Shown: in pieces, positions 4,936 to 34,031 of the stretch | Position numbering within the stretch: the stretch's first letter is position 1 | How the letters are laid out: every line of letters begins with the position of its first letter | Notes under the pieces: model-generated | What the model was told of the DNA's origin: nothing | Seen by the model: only the letters and a program-made list of their open reading frames with translations | Databases searched by the model: none | From: Bacteroidales bacterium | GTDB lineage: Bacteria; Bacteroidota; Bacteroidia; Bacteroidales; JAAUTT01 | Direction: 5' to 3' | Assembly (NCBI GenBank): GCA_025361285.1 | Contig: JANYAP010000167.1 | Span: forward strand, 1-34,885 | Length of the DNA: 34,885 nt | Program-made: the position numbers and the translations under genes

Positions 4936-4970
4936 TTCTTGGTTCTTGGTTCTTGGTTCTTGGTTCTTGG
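4936..4970. repeat. Heptanucleotide tandem repeat (TTCTTGG)x5 upstream of metA
   Basis: Five perfect ttcttgg copies at 4936, 4943, 4950, 4957 and 4964. Confidence 0.97.
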
Positions 4971-5055
4971 TTTTTAATTCTTGCGTTCTATATATAATTG
5001 TCCACAACCCCTTGAAACGTTACAGTTTTTAATTAATTTTACAAAAAAATGAAAT

Positions 5056-18576: not shown

Positions 18577-18632
18577 TGTCATTCCGACGCAGGTCATAAC
18601 GTCGAAGACCTCACCGAAGGTAATCCCTAGTT
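18577..18632. repeat. REP-like fragment (GTCATTCCGACGCAGGTC...)
   Basis: gtgtcattccgacgcaggtcataacgtcgaagacctcaccgaaggtaatccc; shares GTCATTCCGACGCAGGTC with the reverse complement of 28110-28134. Confidence 0.6.
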
Positions 18633-22473: not shown

Positions 22474-23700
22474 TCAATCGTTTTCGGGTATGCTTTTTAA
22501 AGCATTAGCAATGGCCTTAATTTGTATTGCGGTAAGCGACGATAAATATTTCATTTGGGTTACTTCGCCTATGGCCTGCGTAATTTCGCTTACAGGTTTA
22601 CCTCCAACATTTGAGTTGGCAAATGGACCGTGACATTTAGCACACGTGTTAGTATACAATTCTTTACCATCGGGATTTGGGTTTGGCGTACCTGCAAGTG
22701 CCGTAATTATTGCTTGTTTTTGAGGATCGGAAAGCTGTGAGAGATTCTTCATTTCGGGTACATTATTAACGCCAGCTAATAACTGATTTAATAAAGCTCC
22801 AATTTTTGAAGATGTTGCTAGTGGTCCATGACATCCGGCACAATAAGTAGCATACAATAATGCGCCATCGAGTGTTGAAATTGGAGTTCCTACCAACGAA
22901 TCGGCAATGGCCTTGCGCTGAGCATCGGTAAGTACCGAAAGATTTTTCATATCGGGTATTGTGTTTATACCGTTATTGATATCAGAAACCGTTGCATTTA
23001 ATTTTGCCGAAGTAGCCAACGGTCCGTGACATGACTTACAATACGAAGCGTACAAAACAGCTCCATTTAGCGTTGTAAAAGGCGATCCAACCAAAACGCT
23101 TACAATAGCTTGCCGTTGTGCGTCGGAAAGTAATTTAAGGCTCTTCATCAACGAAACGCTGTCAATGCCCTTATTTAACATGAGCCCCGAAGCACCTCGC
23201 TTGGTCGAAGTTGACAACGGTCCGTGACAACCTTCGCAATAGGTGGAATATAAAACAGCGCCATCAACAGATGATATAGGGGCAATTGGAGGTAAAGCAA
23301 CTGCATCCTTCAAACAAACTTTATTATGTGCTCCCTGAGCAATCCAAACTTCGAGAATATGTAACTGATTACTAGTTAATGCCCTGTTAGGAGGCATCAT
23401 ATTAGGGTTGTTAGGGCTGCTAACAATTGTGTAAAGCTTACTCTTAGCAATATTGCCAGGAGTTACCAATTGTAGTACGTTCTCGTAAATCGAATCGATT
23501 AATATATCGCTTTTACTGCCATTAGGACTATGGCATTCGGCACATTGCGACATAAGTATTGGAACAACATCTCGGGTAAAACACACGGTGTCAAGCTCAT
23601 CGATACCCACTGGATCGTGCCTACACGATTGTAACTGCATTACAGTAAAGTATATAAATGCAATCACAAACGCCGCAATATTTAGTTTAAATCGTTGCAT
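22474..23700 (-). CDS. Penta-heme c-type cytochrome lipoprotein with four tandem cytochrome domains
   Basis: Five CxxCH motifs (CAECH, CEGCH, CKSCH, CAGCH, CAKCH); four about 66-aa repeats 'DGA.LY.TYC.GCHGPLATS...MKNLS.L.D.Q..AI...L.GTP'; lipobox LQSC. Confidence 0.93.
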   Translation of the reverse strand: MQRFKLNIAAFVIAFIYFTVMQLQSCRHDPVGIDELDTVCFTRDVVPILMSQCAECHSPNGSKSDILIDSIYENVLQLVTPGNIAKSKLYTIVSSPNNPNMMPPNRALTSNQLHILEVWIAQGAHNKVCLKDAVALPPIAPISSVDGAVLYSTYCEGCHGPLSTSTKRGASGLMLNKGIDSVSLMKSLKLLSDAQRQAIVSVLVGSPFTTLNGAVLYASYCKSCHGPLATSAKLNATVSDINNGINTIPDMKNLSVLTDAQRKAIADSLVGTPISTLDGALLYATYCAGCHGPLATSSKIGALLNQLLAGVNNVPEMKNLSQLSDPQKQAIITALAGTPNPNPDGKELYTNTCAKCHGPFANSNVGGKPVSEITQAIGEVTQMKYLSSLTAIQIKAIANALKSIPEND

Positions 23701-26569: not shown

Positions 26570-27037
26570 ATGGATATAAAGAAAAAGCACGGACGTTACG
26601 AACGCCTTTACAAGCAGTTGGAAGAATTGCTAAAAAAAACTGATAATCCAATATCGCGTATGGCAACAGTGGCGGCTGTGCTTCACCATAAAATGGATTG
26701 CTATTTTTGGACTGGCTTTTATTTGCTGAACGATAGCAAACTACTCGTAGGACCGTATCAAGGCCCAGTTGCGTGCCAGGAACTTACTAAAAATAAGGGA
26801 GTGTGCTGGGCTGCAATAAACGAAAACACAACTATAGTTGTTGCTGATGTTCATCAGTTTACCGACCATATTGCCTGCGATGCGCGTTCGAAATCGGAAA
26901 TTGTAGTGCCAATGCGCAATAACAACGCCGAAGTAATTGGGGTGCTCGACGTTGATAGCAAATATTTGAATTCGTTCGACGATGTAGATGCAAAATGGCT
27001 TGAGAAGATTGTGAAGTTGGTAATAAGTAATAAGTAA
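26570..27037 (+). CDS. GAF-domain free methionine-(R)-sulfoxide reductase
   Basis: [55 protein letters not shown]; three Cys positions as in fRMsr (YebR type). Confidence 0.9.
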
Positions 27038-27069
27038 TGAGTAATGAGTAATGAGTAATGAGTAATGAT
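27021..27069. repeat. Heptanucleotide tandem repeat TAATRAG x7
   Basis: taataag x2, taatgag x4, taatgat; supplies the stop codon of the fRMsr gene (27035-27037). Confidence 0.95.
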
Positions 27070-27073
27070 CGTC

Positions 27074-27205
27074 CATCCGTAATTTCGATAATTTGCGTAA
27101 TTAATCCTGACAGGTTTTCGCTAATAAATAGACTTTCTGATAATTATAAATTACCGAGGTTATATAAAATACAAAACCTGTCAGGATTTTTCGACATAAC
27201 GGATA
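27074..27205. repeat. Nested inverted-repeat element (inner arms TCCTGACAGGTTTT / AAAACCTGTCAGGA)
   Basis: Inner perfect 14-bp arms 27105-27118 and 27173-27186; outer imperfect arms catccgtaatttcg (27074-27087) and cgacataacggata (27192-27205), 11/14. Confidence 0.8.
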
Positions 27206-27253
27206 AATGCTAATTGTATTAAAATCCTTTTCTAGCTTAACAGCATTCAACAC

Positions 27254-28016: not shown

Positions 28017-28157
28017 GTAGGTCGGGATACCATTAGTGGTGGTGTCATCCCGACGTAGGTCGGGATCCAAAGCATGTAAGCTATTGCATTTCTGTCGAAC
28101 ATTCGTTTGGGATTCCGACCTGCGTCGGAATGACAGCATACCTACGTCGGAATGACA
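28017..28157. repeat. REP/BIME-like palindromic cluster (GTCATYCCGACGYAGGTCGGRATCC inverted pair plus half units)
   Basis: 28044-28068 gtcatcccgacgtaggtcgggatcc and 28110-28134 ggattccgacctgcgtcggaatgac are inverted copies (22/25); additional acgtaggtcgggatacc (~28017) and acctacgtcggaatgacac (~28140). Confidence 0.88.
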
Positions 28158-28910
28158 CTATATTGCACTACCCTTTAGCTTCTCCAAATTTGTAACCATA
28201 TAATCGCGCACTTTTTCGGTTGTCTCTTTGGTAGATAAATTAGCGAACTCTTCGTACGGGATAGGATCGAGAATTTGAATTTTAATATTCTGACTTTCCC
28301 TCATTATAAAACCCCTTTTGGGAAGCGAATTGGCAGTTCCATTCAATAAAATAGGTAAAATATCTACTTTCGATTCTTTAGCCAGCTTAAAAGCCCCATC
28401 CTTAAAGGCTAGCATAATCCCATCAATCGATCGGGTACCTTCCGGAAAAATCATTAACGAACTACCGCTTTCCAACGTTTGCTCGCATTGTTTCATCATT
28501 TTTAAATGGCTTTTTTTACTAGCACGGTTTACCGATATATACTTGTTTAAGTGCATGTTCCAGCCCATCACAGGCACGCGAAACAACTCGGCCTTCGAAA
28601 CCCATTTAAAGTGAGTAAATAGTTGGTATATTACCAGTATATCCAACAACGATTGATGATTACTTACCATAACGTATGTTTTTTCGGGATCAATTTTATT
28701 GCGCCCATAAATAGTGGTTTTCCACAACGGATTAATCCAAATGTGCATCGACCCCCAAACCGACGAAAAAAGATGTAGATACCTCAACTTTTTATCGAAC
28801 AAAACCGTTATTACCCAAATAAATACGGCTATTGGAAACATAAACGCTCCAATTAAAACAGTAAACAGCCAAACTAACAATGACACAGTAATTAAATACA
28901 TAATTTGCAA
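28158..28910 (-). CDS. plsC: 1-acyl-sn-glycerol-3-phosphate acyltransferase
   Basis: MVSNHQSLLDILVIYQLF (NHxxxxD), MIFPEGTRS, PILLNGTANSLP. Confidence 0.93.
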   Translation of the reverse strand: MQIMYLITVSLLVWLFTVLIGAFMFPIAVFIWVITVLFDKKLRYLHLFSSVWGSMHIWINPLWKTTIYGRNKIDPEKTYVMVSNHQSLLDILVIYQLFTHFKWVSKAELFRVPVMGWNMHLNKYISVNRASKKSHLKMMKQCEQTLESGSSLMIFPEGTRSIDGIMLAFKDGAFKLAKESKVDILPILLNGTANSLPKRGFIMRESQNIKIQILDPIPYEEFANLSTKETTEKVRDYMVTNLEKLKGSAI

Positions 28911-29751: not shown

Positions 29752-30438
29752 ATGCTAATTGAACTTCAGCGCATTAGTAAAACATATTGGAATGGAACGG
29801 AAAATAATGGGCGTCAAGTATTAAACGACATTTCGCTTTCCATTAATTATGGAGAAACAATTGCTATTATAGGTCCATCGGGTTCTGGCAAAAGCACACT
29901 CCTTAATATTATGGGAACAATTGATACGCCAACCGCGGGAAGCGTTATCTTTAAGGGCACCAACTTAATTTCAACTAGCGAACATGCGCTTGCCAAAATT
30001 CGAAACCAACACATAGGCTTCATTTTTCAACTTCACCACTTATTACCACAACTGAATGTAATTGAAAATGTGCTTGTTCCTACAATTCCTGAAAAAGATA
30101 AAACAAAACGCAAAACATCGCAGGTTAGGGCTATGGATTTACTTGACTATGTAGGCCTTACCGATAAAACTCGTCAACTACCAGGCAATTTATCGGTTGG
30201 CGAATGCCAAAGGGTTGCAGTTGTAAGAGCTTTGGTTAATAATCCCGAAATAATTTTAGCCGACGAACCTACGGGATCACTCGATAGCGAATCGGCATTT
30301 AAGCTAGGCGAATTGCTGCTAAATATAAACAAAACATTAGGCGTTTCCTTAGTTGTTGTAACGCATTCGGCGGAACTAGCTATCACATTAAATAAAGTAT
30401 ATAAACTTGGTAATGGAGTGCTGAGTACTGAGTACTGA
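29752..30438 (+). CDS. ABC transporter ATP-binding protein (LolD/MacB type)
   Basis: Walker A GPSGSGKST, signature LSVGECQRVAVVRAL, Walker B IILADEPTGSLD. Confidence 0.95.
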   Translation: MLIELQRISKTYWNGTENNGRQVLNDISLSINYGETIAIIGPSGSGKSTLLNIMGTIDTPTAGSVIFKGTNLISTSEHALAKIRNQHIGFIFQLHHLLPQLNVIENVLVPTIPEKDKTKRKTSQVRAMDLLDYVGLTDKTRQLPGNLSVGECQRVAVVRALVNNPEIILADEPTGSLDSESAFKLGELLLNINKTLGVSLVVVTHSAELAITLNKVYKLGNGVLSTEY

Positions 30439-30456
30439 GTAATTAGTAAATAGTGT
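30422..30456. repeat. Heptanucleotide repeats (TGAGTAC, TGAGTAC, TGAGTAA, TTAGTAA, ATAGTGT)
   Basis: Direct reading; contains the stop codon (30436-30438) of the ABC ATPase. Confidence 0.9.
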
Positions 30457-30655
30457 CCATCCGTAATGTCTGTTTTTTGATTAGCAACGAGCTTTAGCTC
30501 GTTGAAAAATAAAACAAACAAATACTGCTTTAGCCTAAATATCAATATGTTATTTGGCCTAAAGCCCATCTTTGTATATTCATTTTCTCTGACATAAATG
30601 CCAGAGCAATTAAAAAATTACGCATACCATTGACCTTAGGGATAGACACAAAATT
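30457..30655. mobile_element. Putative non-autonomous palindromic element inserted in the heptamer array
   Basis: Flanked by 19-bp direct repeats agtaat[t/g]agtaaatagtgt (30438-30456 and 30656-30674); contains hairpin caacgagctttagctcgttg and imperfect inverted pair gctttagcctaaat / atttggcctaaagc. Confidence 0.5.
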
Positions 30656-30716
30656 AGTAATGAGTAAATAGTGTTGATTACTATGTACTAAGTACTAAGT
30701 ACTAAATACTCAGTAC
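30654..30716. repeat. Heptanucleotide repeats (TTAGTAA, TGAGTAA ... TAAGTAC x2, TAAATAC, TCAGTAC)
   Basis: Direct reading; same family as 30422-30456, directly upstream of the permease ATG. Confidence 0.88.
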
Positions 30717-30731
30717 TAAAAAACAATCAAA

Positions 30732-33700
30732 ATGACTTTTTTCCGAATAATAGCCAGAAGTCTATGGTATTTCAGAAAGCAGCATTTAGCTGTTTTTGTG
30801 GGTACTGTAATATGTACGGCCGTACTCACTGGCGCTTTAATTATTGGCAATTCGGTAAATTTTAGCCTCCGCAAACTTGTAGAAACAAGGCTTGGAAACA
30901 CTAAATACGTGCTTACAACAGGACCAAGGTTTGTTCGCGCCCAATTAGCCAACGAAATGGCTAATGCCTTGCAAATAAACGCCACTCCTCTCCTACTTTT
31001 GCAAGGCATTGCAATTAATTCCGAGTCCAACACCCGTATAAACACCGCTCAAATTATTTGCATCGATAATACATTTTGGTCGTTTTCAAACAATACAATG
31101 CCATTACTGGAAGAAAATGAGGCTATTATAAGCGAAAACGTTGCTCAAAAGCTTAAACTTACCAAAGGCAACGAATTTTTAGTAAAAATTGACAATGCAG
31201 CCATAATTCCTGTAAATACGCCGTTCGCACCCGAAAGCAAACCGTCAATTTCATTAAGGCTTACAATTAAAGATATAGTTAATGACAGTTGCTTCGGTCG
31301 ATTTAGTCTGCGAAGCAATCAGGCAGCGCCTTTAAACATATTCGTTTCCCGACTATTAATAGCAAAAAAACTAAACCTTTCGAATGTTACCAATTGCATT
31401 CTATTGTCTGATAACAAATCAAATAACATAACTAAATTCGAAATAGAACAATCACTTTCCCAACATTGGCAAACCGAGGATGCTGGACTGGCAATTAACA
31501 AAACCTCTGATAATGAATATTATGAAATAGTATCGAACCGAGTTTTTATCGATAATCCAATTTCGAAAGCCATAAGCCTAATTCCTATACCTCACCAAAA
31601 CATTCTTACATATTTGGTTAATTCCATTCAATATAAAAACAAAAGTACGCCATACTCCTTTGTTTCAGCCACTTCTCTACCAATAACATCGGCAATTATC
31701 GGAAATAGAGAAATTGTTGTAAACCAGTGGCTTGCTAACGACCTGCAAATTACTGTTGGCGATTCACTTACGCTTACCTATTACGTAATTGGCCAGCTAC
31801 GAACGTTAATCGAAAAAAGCAAAAGTTTTAAGGTTATTCAAGTTATACCTATCGAAAGCAAATACGCTAACAGCTCGCTAATGCCGTCGTTTCCTGGCTT
31901 GTCCGATGCAGGCAGTTGTCGCGATTGGAACGCTGGAATACCAATCGACCTAAAAAAAATTCGTGATAAAGACGAAAAATACTGGAACGACTTTAAAGGA
32001 ACTCCAAAAGCATATATCTCATCAGAAACAGGCGCAGAATTATGGAGCAACCAATTCGGCAACTTAACTGCTATTCGATTCAATAATAGCGACATAACAC
32101 TCCAATCGCTAAAAAATACAATTATTCGCAACATTAACCCATCGAGCCTTGGGATAGCCATTACTCCAGTGTTTTACAATGGTTTAAATGCTGCAAATAA
32201 TGCTGTCAATTTTGGCGAATTATTTCTGAGTTTAAGCTTTTTCGTCATTACAGCTGCATTATTACTTACAATACTTTTGCATTCGCTAAACACCGAAATA
32301 CGAAGTAGCGAAAGTGGCATTTTAGCTGGCTTAGGCTATAGTTTTAGGAAAATTTTACAACTTCGTTTCGCCGAATCGGCAGTGGTTATAATATTAGGAG
32401 GCATAATTGGAGCAATAATTGGAATAGCCTACAATTACCTACTAATTAAAGGGTTAAACTCTGTTTGGAACAATGCCGTGCGAGCAAATATGTTAGAGGT
32501 AAACATTAAATTTTCTACCTTATTAATTGGTTGTTTTAGTGGAATTTGCATTGCTCTAATATCCATTTTCGTTGTAACTAATAGAAAATTAAAAACTTCG
32601 GTGGCTAGTTTAATTAAAGGCTTGCCCAACAATATTGCAAGCTCGAGCATGTGGAATATAAATTTAAGTAAAATAATTACTTACGTAGGTATTTTGGGTG
32701 CTTTAGTGCTCATTATCATTTCAATTGCTACAAAATCGATCGAAAACGTAGCGCTGTATTTATCGGCAGGCAGTCTATTTCTAATTGGAAGTTCTGCTCT
32801 CATTATTAATTACATAAGTAGTACGAGTAAAAAATCCAACTCGCCTCTATCTAGTATTTTTCAACTTGCTGTTAAAAACGCCGGAAGAAACAAATCGCGC
32901 AGTATTACCGTAATTTTGGTACTTGCAATAGGCGTATTTAGTATAATAATTACAGGTTCGTACCGCAAAACATTTTACGATACCGAAAACCTCAGTAAAT
33001 CGGGTACTGGCGGTTTTAAATTTTGGGTAGAAACTTCATTACCTATTATTTACGACCTTAACACCAAAGAAGGAAAGGAAAACCTACTTGCTAGTAACGA
33101 AAACGATTTGGATAGTGTAAAATTTATTCAAATACAAGATTTGGAAGGCGACGACGCCAGTTGCTTGAATCTCAATCAGGTACAACGCCCTCGCATTTTA
33201 GGTATTTCAGCATACGAATTCGACAAACGTAACGCATTTTCATTTACTAGCCTACAAAAAGATGTAGATGAACAACATCCATGGCTTGGATTAGATTTAA
33301 AGTTAGGCAAAAATATTTATCCTGCTTTTGCCGACCAAACCGTAATAAAATATGGTTTTAAAAAAACAATTGGCGACACGCTAACGTATAACAACGAAAC
33401 TGGCGACACAATAAAGTTCGTAATTATTGGAGGGCTCAACAATTCCATTTTTCAGGGCAACTTACTAATTTCTAACAAAAAATTTTCTAGCAATTTTCCA
33501 TCTTCAGCAGGATCGAAAATTATATTAGTTGATGCTCCAAAACAAAGTCAAGTAGTAGTTGAAGAAATAATTAGAAATAGTTTTATAGATTATGGTGTAG
33601 AAATTGCCACGGCGTCAAATCGTTTAGCCGAATTTAACTCTGTCGAAAACACTTATCTTAATGTATTTATGGGTTTAGGAAGTCTGGGCGTAATTATTGG

Positions 33701-34031
33701 TACTTTCGGCATGGGTTTAATACTATACCGAAATATGCTCGAACGAAGGCATGAAATGGGGCTTTTAATGGCTATTGGCTTTACAAAAAAAGAAATAGTT
33801 CGCTTAATAGTCATCGAAAACGTATTTCTTCTACTTGCTGGCATCCTATGTGGACTTTTATCGGCAATAATAGGTATATTTCCTTCTATTATCTCACCTG
33901 CATTTAATATTGATGGCAGTTTTTTAACCGCAATTATAAGTTCGATATTCATAATTGGATTGATCTGGATTATCGTTCTAGTTAAATCGTCAACTAAAGT
34001 TAAACTTAATTCATTGCTAAGGAACGAATAA
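30732..34031 (+). CDS. FtsX/MacB-like ABC transporter permease (1099 aa)
   Basis: N-terminal TM + periplasmic domain; LRSSESGILAGLGYSFRKILQLRFAES; C-terminal LGVIIGTFGMGLILYRNMLERRHEMGLLMAIGFTKKEIVRLIVIEN. Confidence 0.93.
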   Translation: MTFFRIIARSLWYFRKQHLAVFVGTVICTAVLTGALIIGNSVNFSLRKLVETRLGNTKYVLTTGPRFVRAQLANEMANALQINATPLLLLQGIAINSESNTRINTAQIICIDNTFWSFSNNTMPLLEENEAIISENVAQKLKLTKGNEFLVKIDNAAIIPVNTPFAPESKPSISLRLTIKDIVNDSCFGRFSLRSNQAAPLNIFVSRLLIAKKLNLSNVTNCILLSDNKSNNITKFEIEQSLSQHWQTEDAGLAINKTSDNEYYEIVSNRVFIDNPISKAISLIPIPHQNILTYLVNSIQYKNKSTPYSFVSATSLPITSAIIGNREIVVNQWLANDLQITVGDSLTLTYYVIGQLRTLIEKSKSFKVIQVIPIESKYANSSLMPSFPGLSDAGSCRDWNAGIPIDLKKIRDKDEKYWNDFKGTPKAYISSETGAELWSNQFGNLTAIRFNNSDITLQSLKNTIIRNINPSSLGIAITPVFYNGLNAANNAVNFGELFLSLSFFVITAALLLTILLHSLNTEIRSSESGILAGLGYSFRKILQLRFAESAVVIILGGIIGAIIGIAYNYLLIKGLNSVWNNAVRANMLEVNIKFSTLLIGCFSGICIALISIFVVTNRKLKTSVASLIKGLPNNIASSSMWNINLSKIITYVGILGALVLIIISIATKSIENVALYLSAGSLFLIGSSALIINYISSTSKKSNSPLSSIFQLAVKNAGRNKSRSITVILVLAIGVFSIIITGSYRKTFYDTENLSKSGTGGFKFWVETSLPIIYDLNTKEGKENLLASNENDLDSVKFIQIQDLEGDDASCLNLNQVQRPRILGISAYEFDKRNAFSFTSLQKDVDEQHPWLGLDLKLGKNIYPAFADQTVIKYGFKKTIGDTLTYNNETGDTIKFVIIGGLNNSIFQGNLLISNKKFSSNFPSSAGSKIILVDAPKQSQVVVEEIIRNSFIDYGVEIATASNRLAEFNSVENTYLNVFMGLGSLGVIIGTFGMGLILYRNMLERRHEMGLLMAIGFTKKEIVRLIVIENVFLLLAGILCGLLSAIIGIFPSIISPAFNIDGSFLTAIISSIFIIGLIWIIVLVKSSTKVKLNSLLRNE

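Follow-up and report, generated by a model that had tools for sequence, protein, structure and literature searches.

A short non-coding element with terminal inverted repeats, very probably a MITE, at a TAATTA target in a heptamer array between two ABC transporter genes of a Bacteroidales bacterium

MITEs derived from insertion sequences have been described in bacteria, and in the case of MITECca01 of Cardinium the parent, from family IS982, resides in the same genome (PMC9769881). Among Bacteroidales, BrickBuilt and MITE239/464 of Porphyromonas gingivalis are MITEs linked to tandem repeats, and some members of the BrickBuilt group have common terminal repeats and unrelated interiors (PMC4596501). 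Two other kinds of repeats deserve comparison. REP/BIME elements, associated with RAYTs, are short intergenic palindromes present in multiple copies; PMC3733652 and PMC2817692 deal with such elements. Direct repeats of the heptamer TAACTGA occur in Beggiatoaceae, cyanobacteria and some Bacteroidetes (PMC4679880).

The element analysed here resembles MITECca01 in that it is short, multi-copy, non-coding, bounded by terminal inverted repeats (TIRs) and presumably served by an enzyme encoded elsewhere; however, the parent of MITECca01 is known, whereas none was found for the present family in the genomes searched, and the target is here a fixed hexamer (PMC9769881). It shares with the Porphyromonas elements its host order, a link to tandem repeats and the combination of common ends with unrelated interiors, but the BrickBuilt group has other TIRs (IS5-like GAGACCTTTGCA), variable duplications and tandem repeats located inside the element, whereas the array lies outside in the present case (PMC4596501). 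The TAACTGA arrays, with a period of 7, an intergenic location and overlaps with upstream stop codons, are comparable to the array flanking the element and not to the element itself; they consist of another heptamer and lie mostly just upstream of start codons, and the available part of the report mentions no MITE within them (PMC4679880). The family answers to the structural definition of a MITE. In the open-licence PubMed Central literature searched, its TIR sequence appears in no paper and TAATTA in none in combination with insertion sequence, inverted repeat and target site. Its interest lies in this absence, in its presence in 21 of 206 sampled Bacteroidales genera and in its strict hexamer target.

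The window, i.e. the whole stretch of 34,885 nucleotides that was analysed (contig JANYAP010000167.1, assembly GCA_025361285.1), contains the following features.

27069-27210, + strand: second element of the family in the window, class B, 142 bp, adjoining a heptamer array at 27015-27068
29752-30438, + strand: upstream gene, ABC transporter ATPase (Pfam ABC_tran, E 9.8e-34)
30417-30446, + strand: left part of the heptamer array (AGTGCTG AGTACTG AGTACTG AGTAATT ..), also encoding the last codons and the stop of the ATPase
30447-30452: target hexamer on the left flank, TAAATA (consensus TAATTA), conserved at the ends of the family and sharply bounded on its outer side
30453-30649, + strand: body of the putative MITE, class A (11 aligned genome copies, mean column identity 86%)
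30453-30470, + strand: left TIR, GTGTCCATCCGTAATGTC, identical to the genome-wide consensus
30485-30504: hairpin 1, CAACGAGCTTTAGCTCGTTG (sequence, conservation among copies, folding)
30527-30565: hairpin 2, arms GCTTTAGCCTAAAT (30527-30540) and ATTTGGCCTAAAGC (30552-30565) (same evidence)
30587-30606: hairpin 3, CTCTGACATAAATGCCAGAG (same evidence)
30632-30649, - strand: right TIR, degenerate, reading GTGTCTATCCCTAAGGTC, with 3 mismatches to the consensus
30651-30656: right flanking target hexamer AAATTA, read after one extra A at 30650
30657-30719, + strand: right part of the heptamer array, sharing the phase of the left part at a separation of exactly 6 bp and no other
30732-34031, + strand: downstream gene, FtsX/MacB-type ABC permease (Pfam FtsX, E 2.4e-15)

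The segment is very probably one of the worn copies of a MITE family of Bacteroidales, mobilised in trans and inserted at TAATTA in the heptamer array between the ATPase and permease genes. This reading is based on TIRs at both ends (87 ends, about 44 paired elements), short length, lack of a transposase gene and presence at many unrelated sites, together with TAATTA on both sides, the sharing of a hexamer by tandem elements, the restored phase of the array and a congener (G001) that carries neither array nor element, the exact junction being too diverged to be read.

The family TIR consensus has 18 bp, GTGTCCATCCGTAAWGTC. Class A elements measure about 185 bp in most copies, and the window copy measures 197 bp, with about 12 surplus bases near its right end. 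Folding as single-stranded DNA gave -30.2 kcal/mol versus -14.8 in dinucleotide shuffles (z = -5), and no Bacteroidetes-type promoter motif was found within the insert. An earlier note, made from the sequence alone, had described an inserted palindromic element without transposase, delimited by 19-bp direct repeats that are 18/19 identical, AGTAATTAGTAAATAGTGT (30438-30456) and AGTAATGAGTAAATAGTGT (30656-30674). These repeats and the two hairpins that it named were all recovered at the coordinates it gave, and the reading of the segment as an inserted palindromic element was borne out. Three hairpins lie between the TIRs, CTCTGACATAAATGCCAGAG having been missed. The borders had to be revised: the mobile unit comprises 30453-30649 with one flanking hexamer per side, and the ends of copies elsewhere in the genome coincide with the TIRs instead of the 19-bp repeats. 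Of the two 19-mers, the left includes the hexamer and the TIR tip; the right falls entirely within the array. The 19-bp repeats were rejected as a target duplication, since they represent neighbouring heptamers, of which the left reach into the hexamer and the TIR tip.

Further copies, which the earlier note had proposed to look for, were abundant in the host genome, a 97.7% complete assembly of 3.2 Mb in 202 contigs (counts from pattern searches). Comparison of 30438-30674 with this genome revealed 12 further places where at least half of the segment is matched with an identity of 73-92%, in addition to fragments. Most long matches span about 30447 to 30618 and stop short of the second 19-bp repeat, because the copies end in the TIR and the right TIR of the window copy is degenerate and preceded by about 12 extra bases. 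The TIR pattern had about 90 matches, versus 1 for a reversed-pattern control, and pairing of TIRs yielded about 44 complete elements, mainly from length classes of about 128, 140, 150 and 185 bp. With 57-208 bp between cores, they are too short for a transposase gene. These dozens of copies occur in both orientations and have unrelated flanks. Paired elements fell into three main internal groups (n = 24, 11 and 8), the largest of which combines more than one interior, and the interiors of at least three classes with the same ends were unrelated to each other. Since other classes have the same ends and different interiors, the family is defined by its ends and not by its hairpins.

Conservation across the 87 ends of the host genome covered TAATTA and the TIR and dropped to background level directly outside. 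In a sample enlarged to 104 sites by taking in other genomes, TAATTA was found on both sides at 52. Deviations in the two central letters recurred in direct orientation on the opposite flank in 4 cases, versus 0.9 in shuffles (p = 0.015), but this test is weak, as p = 0.05 when all six hexamer positions are counted. Back-to-back elements displayed exactly one hexamer between their TIR cores in 11 of 16 distinct pairs, namely TAATTA in ten and TAATGA in one. This single shared hexamer, together with the sharp boundary outside it, designates TAATTA as the insertion target. The tandem spacing is compatible with a duplication of 2, 4 or 6 bp. Reading frames of coding insertions, examined for duplication length, provided no clean case, and in a congener pair (G173/G265) with and without an element in the 5' region of fhs, divergence was too high for the duplication to be read. 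We infer that the hexamer is probably duplicated upon insertion.

The same conservation of the 87 ends had first suggested a MITE of IS630/Tc1-mariner type whose TIR would be longer (ATTAGTGTCC...), with a TA duplication and TA only as target, since the outermost conserved letters are TA and no longer direct repeat lies beyond. However, such an element predicts 10 bp between the GTGTCC cores of back-to-back copies, instead of the 6 bp displayed by 11 of the 16 pairs, and the TA-duplicating model was rejected on this tandem spacing in the larger multi-genome sample. Moreover, no DDE_3 transposase match was found in the host genome, although the enzyme could have been lost. We consider this alternative unlikely.

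The family extends beyond its host: of the 393 Bacteroidales genomes sampled, 27 carried the TIR (21 of 206 genera; control matches, 0), and it also occurred in named Bacteroidales/Bacteroidota metagenome-assembled genomes. Interiors differed between genomes, k-mer clustering distinguishing 13 groups while lumping some AT-rich interiors, and one interior was common to single copies in seven genomes. In these seven genomes, assigned to different families, the loci concerned (L192, L198, L199, L200, L201, L209 and L211) each displayed a single element of about 142 bp, in which the TIR was the same and the interior closely similar.

A transposase gene with the family ends was found neither in the host nor in any other genome searched. 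Long-range pairing of TIRs in own and related loci yielded no autonomous parent, nor did the search of relatives of genome G060 (KTt_bin-2223); viral contigs had no TIR match, and plasmids and phages gave weak chance matches or none. One contig, from G099, was a parent candidate and was rejected, as a MITE end there adjoins the start of an unrelated gene. Four contigs of G060 stop at an identical point inside one TIR end and others inside a second, different end, which suggests that these contig ends may be the two ends of a longer, multi-copy autonomous element lost in assembly. Contigs C13, C433, C435, C591, C717 and C738 of this genome break off about 115 bp inside the TIR, and their inner sequences are of two different kinds.

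According to the mechanism proposed for the MITE, an enzyme supplied in trans would recognise the TIRs of a non-coding element of about 185-200 bp and insert it at the palindromic TAATTA, leaving one hexamer copy on each side. Heptamer arrays would supply ready targets, and the element would have entered the one located between the ABC ATPase and permease genes. The dependence on a transposase in trans, put forward in the earlier note, was judged right, and such an enzyme would probably act on the ends. Judging from how far the copies have diverged and from the missing intact parent, the element itself is presumably immobile at present.

Interiors are exchanged while the ends stay the same, and the enzyme is missing, which raises the question of what moves the family ends. 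Facing ends read GGACAC-TAATTA-GTGTCC, i.e. inverted arms around a 6-bp core, and this is the layout of tyrosine-recombinase crossover sites such as dif. One improbable answer is that the ends form a portable recombination cassette, in which an enzyme of undefined type would insert anything between two ends at TAATTA. If true, this would explain the unrelated interiors found within the same ends across different Bacteroidales families.

Under the MITE reading, the array into which the element was inserted can be reconstructed. Once the element and one hexamer are removed, 12 heptamers follow in a single phase (AGTGCTG AGTACTG AGTACTG AGTAATT AGTAATT AGTAATG AGTAAAT AGTGTTG ATTACTA TGTACTA AGTACTA AGTACTA), and only a spacing of 6 bp among those from 0 to 12 bp has this effect. 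As the right TIR and hexamer are degenerate, the phase is restored on the assumption that the A at 30650 is surplus; by chance, one in seven spacings would fit. Heptamers continue on both sides of the element, as the earlier note had reported, and on sequence evidence the array predates the element at the window site, which agrees with one of the two possibilities given in that note, the interruption of a pre-existing array. The predicted uninterrupted allele, with insertion at a single TAATTA, would read ..AGTAATTAGTAATTAGTAATGAG.. at this point. TAATTA arises wherever two AGTAATT units adjoin, and heptamer arrays offer insertion targets because AGTAATTAGTA contains it. The repeat cluster can be explained in this way as an insertion into an array that offered the target. 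A four-unit heptamer pattern had 341 matches in the host genome versus 5 for the reversed pattern, and an array adjoins 3 of the approximately 44 elements, in two cases on both sides. Given a rough chance expectation below 1, derived from assumed intergenic and array totals, the association amounts to a mild excess at most.

This proximity, and the resemblance of the TIR tip TAATTAG to the heptamer AGTAATT, could also indicate that the heptamers belong to the element, as portions of one extended terminal repeat that comprises array and TIR and grew outward. However, heptamers are absent from most elements and elements from most arrays, the TIR occurs without flanking heptamers in other genomes, and removal of the element gives one continuous array, so that this explanation is very unlikely.

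Several heptamer arrays start at or over an upstream stop codon (27015 and 30416 in the window; around 1500 in loci L137 and L142), and the period of 7 places stops in several frames. A GAF-domain protein (26570-27037) has its C-terminus and stop in the array at 27015-27068, which the class B element directly follows. An ORF on the - strand (26741-27076) starts in this array read backwards and is probably spurious.

Mobilisation by a RAYT/IS200-like transposase, for which the earlier note had suggested a search, found no support. It would make the segment a REP/BIME-type element, a set of short palindromes moved by a Y1 enzyme and flanked by the 19-bp direct repeats, and it could draw on the short hairpins of the interior and on three Y1 transposase matches in the host genome, one of them strong. 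However, at these three loci the best matches to the hairpins or the TIR were no better than in shuffled sequence, and classes with the same ends have very different interiors. The unit also has true TIRs, of 18 bp, and a flanking hexamer, whereas REPs are not known to have long terminal inverted repeats or a hexamer target. We hold this origin to be most unlikely.

As the earlier note had pointed out, the element separates the ABC ATPase from its permease; in most of the relatives that were found, the two genes lie next to each other. In the window they are 293 bp apart. In congener G001, in which the permease N-terminus is 68% identical in amino acids, a divergence at which the exact empty junction is unreadable, the distance from stop to ATG is 10 bp, and the empty site sought by the earlier note shows neither array nor element; five other relatives have gaps of 2-25 bp. 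The element may possibly uncouple expression of the two genes. In G020, from another family of the order, the same junction (L066, about 1263-1497) is filled by an unrelated repeat-bearing stretch of 235 bp. An origin in place, as an attenuator or conserved functional RNA of the operon, is suggested by strong hairpins between co-directional genes but is scarcely credible, since the same sequence occurs at many unrelated sites in both orientations and is absent from the congener, no T run follows any hairpin on the sense strand, and the Rfam search of the element returned no family at gathering score.

Other repeats were noticed in the window. The palindromic repeat TGTCATTCCGACGCAGGTC occurs, with its reverse complement, in two places (18577-18595, and 28042-28060 with 28117-28163). 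The start of the contig (window 1-220) consists of a 9-bp tandem array of about 25 units, AACTTCTAT, and a 7-bp array of TTCTTGG lies at 4936-4989. Three direct repeats with a spacing of 198 bp (22805-23264) are situated in an ORF of 408 aa on the - strand (22474-23700), which is cytochrome c-like in its repeated CxxCH motifs.
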